From contig CAIUGT010000042.1 in the NCBI GenBank assembly GCA_903898755.1, positions 1 to 32,512 of the forward strand: 32,512 nt of DNA. The letters are read 5' to 3'. How positions within the stretch are numbered: position 1 is the stretch's first letter; the number at the start of each line of letters is the position of its first letter. Under the pieces are notes generated by a model. The model had not been told where the DNA came from, searched no databases, and saw nothing but the letters and a program-made list of their open reading frames with translations. Both the position numbers and the translations under genes were made by a program. The DNA is from an uncultured bacterium (GTDB taxonomy: Bacteria; Planctomycetota; Phycisphaerae; Phycisphaerales; SM1A02). Positions 24,230 to 25,867 of this stretch are shown piece by piece.

Positions 24230-24262
24230 TAAAAAGCCCCCAAGGTTTGAAGCTTAGGGGCT
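24230..24262 (-). terminator. Intrinsic terminator of the PEP-CTERM gene
   Basis: Read on the minus strand, AGCCCC pairs with GGGGCT, extended by a U-G pair and AAG/CTT around an eight-base loop, and is followed by TTTTTATTTAT. It lies 74 bp after the stop codon of the gene at 24336-25049. Confidence 0.85.
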
Positions 24263-24335: not shown

Positions 24336-25049
24336 TTAGTTGCGTCGACGGCGAGTGGCCACAAGACCAGCAAGACCGATCAATGCTACCGCACCAGGGG
24401 CGGGAACCGTCATCTGGAAGTTGGTAGCGGTCCACGTCTGCCCGGCGCCCGAGTCGCCCACGGAATTCATCATGACGCCCATATTCGTCACCTGATTCCA
24501 ATTGATGCCATAGTCAGTAAACTGACTCTTTCTGAACTCAAAGGACAAACTCGAAGCGCTCAGTTGTGCCTCCGTGAGAGGCAGGATTTTTACCGCTAAA
24601 CCAGAAACGGTGCCATCAACGAAGTAAACTTCAACGTAACTACCCGTACTCCGAGTGGTGCCGGCGAATGCCACATCCATCGTGACCTTGTCGAAGTTGA
24701 TCGCAACAGCGGACCCATTCGCATTCGTGTAAAGCAGATCGACGTAGGAGCCGTCGCTGTTCGGGCCACTGGTGAAGGAGCCCACCCACGAGCCCGCGCC
24801 GATCTGGCTGCGGGCGGTAGTCGGGCTAGCATCGTAGCCCTTCGTCGCTGTGTTTTGCCGAGTGTTGAATAGACCGCCGAGCCACGAACCGCTTTGTGAC
24901 CCCTTGGTAAAAAGAGGGCTCTGACTTGACGTAGCGGTCACGTCCGAAGCTTGCGTGAACGGATCCACGATCTCAGCATTCGCCGAACTCGCCAAAGCCG
25001 CAGCCGCAACAACACCAACCATTGAAGAAATGAAAGTTTGAGTACGCAT
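24336..25049 (-). CDS. PEP-CTERM sorted surface/exported protein
   Basis: This 237-residue protein has an N-terminal signal peptide (MRTQTFISSMVGVVAAAALA, cleaved near ANA) and a C-terminal sorting tail of the PEP-CTERM class. The tail is the motif VPAPG, a hydrophobic stretch (AVALIGLAGLVA) and a basic end TRRRRN. Such proteins are recognised by an exosortase, cut near the motif, and placed on or outside the cell envelope. No exosortase gene is in this window. The mature domain is rich in Ser, Thr, Gly and Asn (GSQSGSWLGGLFNTRQN, TNANGSAVAINFDK) and appears mostly beta; its function is unknown. The ATG has AAGGA eight bases upstream. A long structured leader precedes the gene and a good terminator follows it, so it is a single-gene unit. 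Confidence 0.88.
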   Translation of the reverse strand: MRTQTFISSMVGVVAAAALASSANAEIVDPFTQASDVTATSSQSPLFTKGSQSGSWLGGLFNTRQNTATKGYDASPTTARSQIGAGSWVGSFTSGPNSDGSYVDLLYTNANGSAVAINFDKVTMDVAFAGTTRSTGSYVEVYFVDGTVSGLAVKILPLTEAQLSASSLSFEFRKSQFTDYGINWNQVTNMGVMMNSVGDSGAGQTWTATNFQMTVPAPGAVALIGLAGLVATRRRRN

Positions 25050-25057
25050 AACAAAAA

Positions 25058-25062
25058 TCCTT
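25058..25062 (-). promoter_or_regulatory. Shine-Dalgarno (AAGGA) of the PEP-CTERM gene
   Basis: On the minus strand AAGGA is eight bases before the ATG at 25049, which fixes the start. Confidence 0.65.
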
Positions 25063-25090
25063 GAGTCGTAAGACTTAAATAATCACCAAA

Positions 25091-25253
25091 CCATTTTGAA
25101 ATGGCGGTAATTCCAAACGGCAGAGAACGCCTGCCAGCGGTGTGATTGAAAGAGCTCAACGTGAGCAATTTCAATCTGTCGCTTCTTATGTGGTTTTGAA
25201 ACCGCACAAGAATTACCCCGGAGTGGAATGGATTTGTTGGTTGCCGATTCCAC
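25091..25253 (-). promoter_or_regulatory. Hairpin-rich leader RNA upstream of the PEP-CTERM gene
   Basis: Five inverted repeats lie in the minus-strand leader. In 5'-to-3' order of the RNA they are: 25253-25223 (7-bp stem GTGGAAT/ATTCCAC, 17-base loop); 25203-25192 (GGTTT/AAACC around two bases); 25176-25144 (8-bp outer stem GATTGAAA/TTTCAATC, a 2x2 internal loop, 5-bp inner stem GCTCA/TGAGC, 3-base loop); 25135-25119 (5-bp GGCAG/CTGCC); 25104-25091 (CCATTT/AAATGG around two bases). The ribosome-binding site follows at 25062. A 64-codon GTG frame (25277-25083) spans the same region, but its codon and residue mix is unconvincing. A cis-acting RNA element is the better reading, though unproven. 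Confidence 0.5.
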
Positions 25254-25272
25254 GATTTGCAACATATCTTCT

Positions 25273-25317
25273 TCCACAGATGTAAACGTAAAAACAGGTG
25301 GTCTCAGTCACGCAATA
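25273..25317 (-). repeat. 45-bp direct repeat, copy 1 (upstream of the PEP-CTERM leader)
   Basis: On the minus strand this copy runs from TATTGCGTGACTGAGACCAC through a T-tract to TTTACATCTGTGGA, and its end coincides with a GTG codon at 25277. It matches copy 2 (25822-25867) with two substitutions and one base less in the T-tract. TACGTT, seven bases before the GTG, could be a -10. It is probably a promoter or operator. Confidence 0.85.
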
Positions 25318-25397
25318 GGAAGTTTTTATTGAGGTAGATTTTCACCTAAGTTATTAGGGACTTGAGATGGCTGCCTTTACGCGCCGCAAACGAGACT

Positions 25398-25514
25398 TTT
25401 ACAAAAAGTATTTTGTGTGGGCGGTGGCAAAAACATCCAGTCACATAAAGCGCTCCAGCTTTGCAAGCTATTTGCAAAGAGTGCTTTGCAATGAATTTAC
25501 AAAAAGTAATTTGT
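25398..25514. repeat. 19-bp direct repeat TTTACAAAAAGTA(T/A)TTTGT, two copies
   Basis: Copies at 25398-25416 and 25496-25514 differ at one base. Each is itself an interrupted palindrome (ACAAAA/TTTTGT in the first, TACAAA/TTTGTA in the second). They lie 82-198 bp beyond copy 1 of the 45-bp element. Confidence 0.75.
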
Positions 25515-25516
25515 AA
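25460..25516. promoter_or_regulatory. Phased array of five TTTGCAA-like heptamers
   Basis: TTTGCAA occurs at 25460-25466, 25471-25477 and 25485-25491, then TTTACAA at 25496-25502 and TTTGTAA at 25510-25516. Start-to-start distances are 11, 14, 11 and 14 bp. The core is palindromic (TTGCAA). The regular spacing suggests binding sites for a protein lying along one stretch of DNA, such as an operator or an iteron-like cluster. Confidence 0.5.
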
Positions 25517-25624
25517 TTCTGTGTTGTCAGGCGCGTGCCATTTGGCAACGCGACCGGCTGGAACAGTTGTTCTTAAAGGCGCTCTTCAAGTGCGCTCCAA
25601 CCAATGCGCGTAAAAACCAATATG

Positions 25625-25660
25625 CAAAAAAAACGAGTCGCCTGTTTAAGGGCGACTCGT
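25625..25660 (-). terminator. Strong intrinsic terminator of a short minus-strand unit
   Basis: On the minus strand a perfect 10-bp stem (ACGAGTCGCC with GGCGACTCGT) around an eight-base loop is followed by eight T residues. It is among the clearest terminators in the window, yet no recognised gene precedes it. It therefore marks the end of a short transcript starting near copy 2 of the 45-bp element. Confidence 0.88.
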
Positions 25661-25826
25661 AATTGAGTTGACTTGTTTGAGGCAGTGTTCCCGACCGCGT
25701 TCAAACATATCGTCCCAAATCTGGTCGGCTTGTCTGGTGCAGGTTCCCGCTGCGGTCCGACATGGCTTTCCAGCACATCTAGATTCGTTGTTGTCGCGCT
25801 TCCCAACGCTTCAACTCGCTATCCAT
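25625..25826 (-). ncRNA. Candidate short transcript (small RNA or broken mini-gene) between copy 2 and the terminator
   Basis: About 200 nt lie between the putative promoter in copy 2 and the terminator. The unit can form a 6-bp stem CCGACC/GGTCGG (25728-25723 with 25696-25691) and carries an internal degenerate duplication around CGGGAAC-CTGC and CGGGAACACTGC. It also has coding features. An ATG at 25826 opens a 15-codon frame (MDSELKRWEARQQRI, stop at 25779). The next frame is open from 25810 to the TAA at 25646 for 54 codons, with a protein-like run (KPCRTAAGTCTRQADQIWDD, then MFERGREHCLKQVN) and four cysteines, but no good start. Joining the two needs a +1 shift. It may be a small RNA, a frameshifted gene or a recoded mini-gene; I cannot decide. 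Confidence 0.4.
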
Positions 25827-25867
25827 AGATGTAAACGTAAAAAACAGGTGGTCACAGTCACGCAATA
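25822..25867 (-). repeat. 46-bp direct repeat, copy 2 (upstream of the short unit)
   Basis: On the minus strand this copy runs from TATTGCGTGACTGTGACCAC to TTTACATCTATGGA and ends on the ATG at 25826, exactly aligned with the GTG of copy 1. It has six T residues where copy 1 has five. Upstream of both copies a weaker match (AAAA, one base, CTT, then TATTGCG) continues the similarity. Confidence 0.85.

Follow-up and report, generated by a model that had tools for sequence, protein, structure and literature searches.

On the minus strand of the window, by which we mean the whole 32,512-nucleotide stretch analyzed, a gene for an exported protein with a PEP-CTERM-like tail is preceded by a structured leader and, further upstream, by a terminated structured RNA that we call sRNA-A, and a copy of one short DNA element stands ahead of each of these two units (Table 1). 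An initial annotation had described a 45-bp duplication here, and we found it at the positions given there. As claimed, the copies differ at two bases (GTG versus ATG, and GACTGAGACC versus GACTGTGACC) and by a single T in a T-tract, which has five bases in copy 1 and six in copy 2; both copies read TATTGCGTGACTGWGACCACCTG-T(5-6)-ACGTTTACATCTRTG on the minus strand. It is also correct that TACGTT ends seven bases ahead of the GTG or ATG at 25277 and 25826, and that the sequences past the element are unlike one another. The conservation reaches further upstream than first noted: a sequence logo shows that it takes in an AAA block as well as a TTGC immediately ahead of GTGA.

Table 1. Features of the element-associated locus in the window and of two related units on contig C129 of the same genome (G000).
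Feature	Location	Strand	Remarks
Element copy 2, putative promoter of sRNA-A	25822..25867	-	GTGACT 25861-25856, TACGTT 25839-25834, ATG 25826-25824
sRNA-A, ~200-nt terminated structured RNA	25626..25826	-	fold z -3.7
Intrinsic terminator of sRNA-A	25633..25660	-	10-bp stem then T8; kept in diverged G009 copy
Upstream conserved stretch ACAAAATACTTTTTGTAAA, dyad-like	25398..25416	-	lies ~120 nt before element copy 1 (-125 from core)
Element copy 1, putative promoter of PEP-CTERM-like gene	25273..25317	-	GTGACT 25311-25306, TACGTT 25290-25285, GTG 25277-25275
Structured 5' leader of PEP-CTERM-like gene, ~228 nt	25050..25277	-	
Gene for 237-aa exported protein with PEP-CTERM-like tail	24336..25049	-	tail VPAPGAVALIGLAGLVATRRRRN
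Terminator-like site after PEP-CTERM-like gene	24235..24262	-	
VKS gene, conserved 178-aa protein	L015 13585-14121	-	
RNA-B	L015 14287-14390 (G000:C129)	+	orthologues in L098, L100, L101, L117, L123, L138

The duplication is far beyond chance, because the reversed pattern is nowhere matched in the genome, whose other contigs contain additional copies that are exact or nearly so. The full pattern matches exactly five times in the genome, twice in the window; eight to nine matches are found when mismatches are allowed, and 14 with a shorter core. These 14 copies belong to nine PEP-CTERM-like genes, three copies of sRNA-A, one copy of a second small RNA (RNA-B) and one divergent VKS gene, and the location of nine of 14 sites within 400 nt before PEP-CTERM-like genes has a binomial P of about 1.5e-20. 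Counting the window's own genome and about eight others, the core is matched in nine of the 16 genomes of the genus, which are freshwater Phycisphaerales metagenome-assembled genomes (MAGs); G001 has just one match, with one mismatch, that could be due to chance, and those in G013 and others are clear. As a control, the reversed pattern gave zero to one match per genome. A 34-base pattern was absent from all 25 genomes of the family and order searched outside the genus, and when 84,980 species genomes were scanned for exact matches to a 22-base version, 21 stretches were found, exclusively in freshwater-type MAGs labeled Phycisphaerales, Planctomycetia, Planctomycetaceae or else "uncultured bacterium."

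Across these genomes we tallied 54 distinct copies, with the counts to be read as lower bounds because identical copies were merged. They are followed by PEP-CTERM-like genes (27), PEP-type leaders at contig ends (seven), sRNA-A (eight), RNA-B (six) and the VKS gene (five), with one decayed copy before another gene. The element is always oriented towards its own unit, even on C129, where two back-to-back copies each face their unit, and no copies were seen inside genes or transposable elements. The sequence conservation, position and orientation of the element, its association with one class of genes and the conservation of sRNA-A are directly seen. The regulon proposed by the initial annotation had predicted that more copies would lie between genes, ahead of PEP-CTERM genes or small transcripts; their discovery in the same genome and in sister species lends the idea comparative support, as it does the proposal that a common element precedes two separate units in the window, a PEP-CTERM-like gene with its leader and a terminated RNA.

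We propose that the element very probably works as a dedicated promoter, with a dyad resembling an operator, for a regulon of exported surface proteins of the exosortase type that is particular to this genus; its role as a promoter, the position of the transcription start and the co-regulation are what we infer from sequence comparison. One copy would drive each structured leader together with its PEP-CTERM-like gene, and at several loci, the window included, an additional copy further upstream would drive a separate, terminated sRNA-A, so that one signal would govern production of both the mRNA and the small RNA.

The protein encoded in the window has a tail that resembles the PEP-CTERM kind but reads PAPG rather than PEP, and it scores 15.0 bits against a cut-off of 16 for TIGR02595 and 14.3 against 20.7 for PF07589. 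The genome contains nine element copies about 90-350 nt upstream of exported-protein genes with tails of the PAPG..ALIGLAGL..RRRRN type. Since a short-protein search finds about 36 such tails in the genome, roughly a third of its PEP-CTERM-like genes carry the element, in some cases as a degenerate version, a fraction that counts against the promoter-regulon reading. An exosortase (PF09721) is encoded once in each of 14 of the 16 genus genomes, G000 included. In nearly all pairs of downstream proteins only the last ~23 residues are in common, and the leader type of the window gene also stands ahead of unrelated PEP-CTERM-like genes elsewhere.

Element-bearing copies of sRNA-A, within and between species, have bodies that are 95-99% identical, and most flanks are lower: downstream flanks show 50-87% identity, and upstream flanks 42-48% at non-orthologous sites versus 86-91% at an orthologous site in three species. 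At each of the three loci in the genome of the window (C42, C43 and C104), a second element with a PEP-CTERM-like gene follows 290-340 nt after sRNA-A, and in sister species the distance to the second element is 175-290 nt where sequence exists. sRNA-A is not a conserved open reading frame. Compensatory changes are found at two of 48 pairs, a low number that reflects the close similarity of the sequences. In one copy the whole first hairpin has been replaced with a CGGGAA loop kept, and the copy in G013 has a compensatory change beneath the same loop. Searches of the window against Rfam at gathering and relaxed thresholds returned no relevant match for sRNA-A, and BLAST of the sRNA-A cassette against 181 family genomes found no convincing match outside the genus. 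A covariance model applied to 101 family genomes gave strong matches, among the genomes sampled, in the window's genome and in G013 only, as well as four weak ones elsewhere (E 0.001-0.05).

A diverged copy in G009 (C8; L108 around 2400-2600), 65-77% identical, has no element and lies upstream of an apparently unrelated membrane-protein gene; because of this copy, it seems that sRNA-A may predate its recruitment to the element promoter. Many MAG contigs end in or near sRNA-A (G002:C58, C91, C105 and C111; G007:C20 and C26; G015:C169; G005:C26; G011:C53, C55, C183 and C202), which a multi-copy repeat that disrupts assembly would explain, and copy numbers are therefore underestimates. In L112 (G011:C183), the C-terminal codons of a PEP-CTERM-like gene (..AAALIGLAGLVATRRRRN) come close after sRNA-A, an arrangement that suggests deletion, recombination or misassembly. 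Three AT-rich dyad-like stretches (TTTACAAAAAGTATTTTGT and relatives) lie between sRNA-A and element copy 1, at 25398-25416, 25471-25489 and 25496-25514, and one of the three is kept at a fixed distance in sister promoters.

The G-rich loops of sRNA-A raise the idea that it is a sponge of the Csr/Rsm type, whose repeated GGGAA hairpin loops bind CsrA and control the PEP-CTERM leaders. Every one of the 16 genus genomes has a CsrA gene and most have two, and PF02599 exceeds its cut-off in 25 of 25 genomes. Within sRNA-A, GGGA occurs four times against 1.0 expected (P 0.004) and GGGAA three times against 0.4, and the retention of the CGGGAA loop through replacement of a whole stem, together with the compensatory change under that loop in G013, fits such a role. 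However, sRNA-A contains no match to AGGA or A.GGA, the canonical A(N)GGA motif, its total of seven GGA against 4.5 expected is unremarkable (P 0.10), it lacks an Rfam match, and the leaders are not enriched in GGGA (15 versus 20 expected), their hairpins having varied loops that are often GNRA-like. Since the canonical CsrA motif is absent despite the GGGA enrichment, a sponge remains a minority view that we consider unlikely.

Alternatively, the element could be a remnant of duplication in the PEP-CTERM gene family, in which promoter-leader cassettes were copied and their likeness reflects recent copying or gene conversion instead of regulation. A few leader families are each common to several genes, the sRNA-A copies within the genome are 98% identical, and the many contigs that end within sRNA-A are what a multi-copy repeat would produce. 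Such a history does not account well for downstream coding regions that are mostly unrelated save for the tail, for the use of the element by RNA-B and the VKS gene as well, or for a core that is nearly invariant where leaders, flanks and dyad arms have diverged, and we regard it as quite improbable.

Returning to the promoter that we favor, the consensus of the element is TTGCGTGA-N6-(T/C/A)CAC-CYR-TTTTTTACGTTTACATNNNTG. In a logo of 51 sequences, the AAA block is followed in order by TTGCGTGA, a six-base spacer, the (T/C/A)CAC half site, CYR, TTTTTTACGTTTACAT, three loose bases and TG; TTTTTTACGTTTACAT is nearly invariant, partly by construction because the core itself was the search query. 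The GTGAC-T-G(T/A)GAC motif of the initial annotation is present as the form taken in one lineage by a GTGA-N6-TCAC-like dyad, which in sister species appears cleanly as GTGATCAAGGTCAC. In the logo, the left half of the dyad is conserved at 0.96-0.98, as is the CA of the right half at 0.94-0.98, with its T at only 0.53. Many PEP promoters also contain a CAAAATACTTTTTGTAAA stretch, positioned exactly -101 from the core in those sister promoters having one; real cases show zero to three mismatches versus six for the best shuffled match.

The dyad could be taken for a site of the CRP/FNR family that controls these genes, as the sister-species consensus GTGATC-NN-GRTCAC looks like the site of that family. 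Yet none of the 16 genomes encodes a protein over the HTH_Crp_2 (PF13545) cut-off, the right half site is poorly kept in some copies, and the dyad would be centered near -28, whereas class II activators usually sit at -41.5, all of which makes control by such a regulator highly unlikely.

With the A of ATG as +1, GTGA(T/C)(C/T) occupies -35 to -30 and TACGTT occupies -13 to -8. TACGTT would then serve as the -10 region and GTGA(T/C)(C/T), 16 bases upstream, as the -35 region, with transcription most likely starting at or next to the conserved TATG, so that the conserved ATG would be a start site and not a translated open reading frame. The VKS gene informs this assignment: in four species its first available start codon, GTG or ATG, falls two bases after the first base of the element ATG, and transcription must therefore begin at or upstream of that point. 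This geometry fits a transcription start in CATCTATG and would make the VKS gene apparently leaderless. Three points count against the promoter reading: TACGTT matches TATAAT at only three of six positions, promoter prediction gave no call of the sigma-70 type here, and the 20-nt spacing from GTGA to CGTT is longer than is usual for ECF promoters.

The initial annotation had seen a start codon at the common position, and short leaderless reading frames beginning there might act as leader peptides controlling the downstream gene, a notion that draws on the retention of ATG or GTG at the end of the element and on the apparent start of the VKS gene there. The GTG or ATG is indeed kept, but mostly it does not appear to be translated because the reading frames that follow differ in length and frame: one copy reads ATG-TAA, another is shifted by four bases (G002_C111), and the sRNA copy in the window has an in-frame TAG that is absent from other copies. 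We therefore give leader peptides very little credence. A mobile repeat (REP or MITE-like) lying between genes by chance would explain multiple, partly near-identical copies, but this scarcely credible reading is largely refuted by position and orientation, as the element has no terminal inverted repeats seen around it, a single orientation relative to its unit and, among 54 copies, none before unrelated genes save one that is decayed.

If the element is a promoter, its recognition factor becomes the next consideration. A sigma-54 promoter was rejected: at no common offset do any of the 50 distinct elements contain the -24/-12 signature GG-N10-GC, despite the presence of rpoN in the genome (TIGR02395 is over its cut-off in 15 of the 16 genus genomes). 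On C129, a gene for an ECF sigma factor (TIGR02999, 169 bits against a cut-off of 126) and a Ser/Thr kinase gene overlap at their ends (L015 11777-13458), flanked on one side by a PEP-CTERM-like gene predicted to be driven by the element and on the other by the VKS gene and RNA-B. This block recurs in G015, G003, G002 and G007 and partly in G005, and the ECF factor is 89-95% identical in four other genus genomes, where it also adjoins elements. Read by eye, its sequence appears to have QPTA where the charged DAED is usual, with Thr in place of charged residues. No element precedes the ECF gene in its own direction within its upstream region, and a search of solved structures with the protein returned only spurious repeats. 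The ECF factor is a candidate because a syntenic block flanked by elements recurs in several species, and we consider it possible, if somewhat short of probable, that it is the cognate sigma factor of the element and is switched on by phosphorylation in the way that PknT activates EcfP. Synteny alone fails to single out this factor, because TIGR02999 members are usually numerous in planctomycetes.

RNA-B, the neighbor of this block, is a terminated RNA of ~100 nt with three hairpins, two of them with CCCCUUUU-type loops, and is kept in seven genomes. Its loops CCCCCUUUUU and UACCCCUUUU resemble anti-Shine-Dalgarno C-rich loops. The VKS protein has no match in Pfam or NCBIfam. In a more speculative extension that we think unlikely to hold as a whole, one phospho-activated ECF sigma factor would drive the regulon, and sRNA-A, through its GGGAA loops, and RNA-B, through its anti-Shine-Dalgarno-like CCCCUUUU loops, would act on the leaders of the regulon. 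If true, exosortase substrates in Planctomycetota would be governed by a self-contained circuit acting at both the transcriptional and the post-transcriptional level.

We found no description of such a motif in Planctomycetota in the open-access literature, and the element, with more than 50 near-identical promoter-like copies, appears to mark a previously undescribed, co-controlled gene set in a single genus of lake planctomycetes that are uncultured. With it come two candidate families of RNA, namely sRNA-A and RNA-B. Like RsmZ and CsrB of the Csr/Rsm group, sRNA-A is a terminated RNA of ~200 nt with repeated G-rich hairpin loops in genomes that encode CsrA; unlike them, it has no A(N)GGA loops and matches no Rfam family. 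Kinase-activated ECF factors are known from EcfP-PknT (ECF43) and from the planctomycete groups ECF59, ECF61 and ECF62, and their hallmark is the replacement of the charged DAED by uncharged residues with a phosphorylatable Thr or Ser (PMC8103513, PMC8999054). The candidate sigma factor, a TIGR02999 member, resembles these systems in its adjoining kinase gene and, as read by eye, in the apparent QPTA of its DAED region, and differs in that its putative link to the element is drawn from synteny.

Regulated promoters of PEP-CTERM genes have precedents in other bacteria. Aquincola pepA is RpoN-dependent, with a mapped -24/-12 sigma-54 promoter (PMC9850573); it is thus like the putative arrangement here in that a PEP-CTERM gene has its own regulated promoter, whereas the promoter sequence there is that of sigma-54 and not of the element. 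In Proteobacteria, a cis-regulatory site consisting of motif 1 and a sigma-54 motif 2 is associated with PEP-CTERM genes and with PrsK-PrsR (Haft et al. 2006, PMC1569441). As at that site, we see conserved DNA in long non-coding regions before many single-gene PEP-CTERM units, and these upstream regions hold another conserved motif too. In contrast to it, the element shows GG-N10-GC in 0/50 copies, occurs in another phylum and is predicted to serve two small RNAs as well; because the sigma-54 feature was tested and is absent, we do not count the element as a member of the sigma-54/PrsR regulon. The authors of that study noted that among the species they examined only Proteobacteria shared the motifs, and that others, also outside Proteobacteria, were still to be found (PMC1569441). 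The element appears to be one of these foreseen PEP-CTERM regulatory motifs, and its consensus, gene set, two conserved RNAs and candidate sigma factor together offer a testable handle on surface-protein control in uncultured lake planctomycetes.
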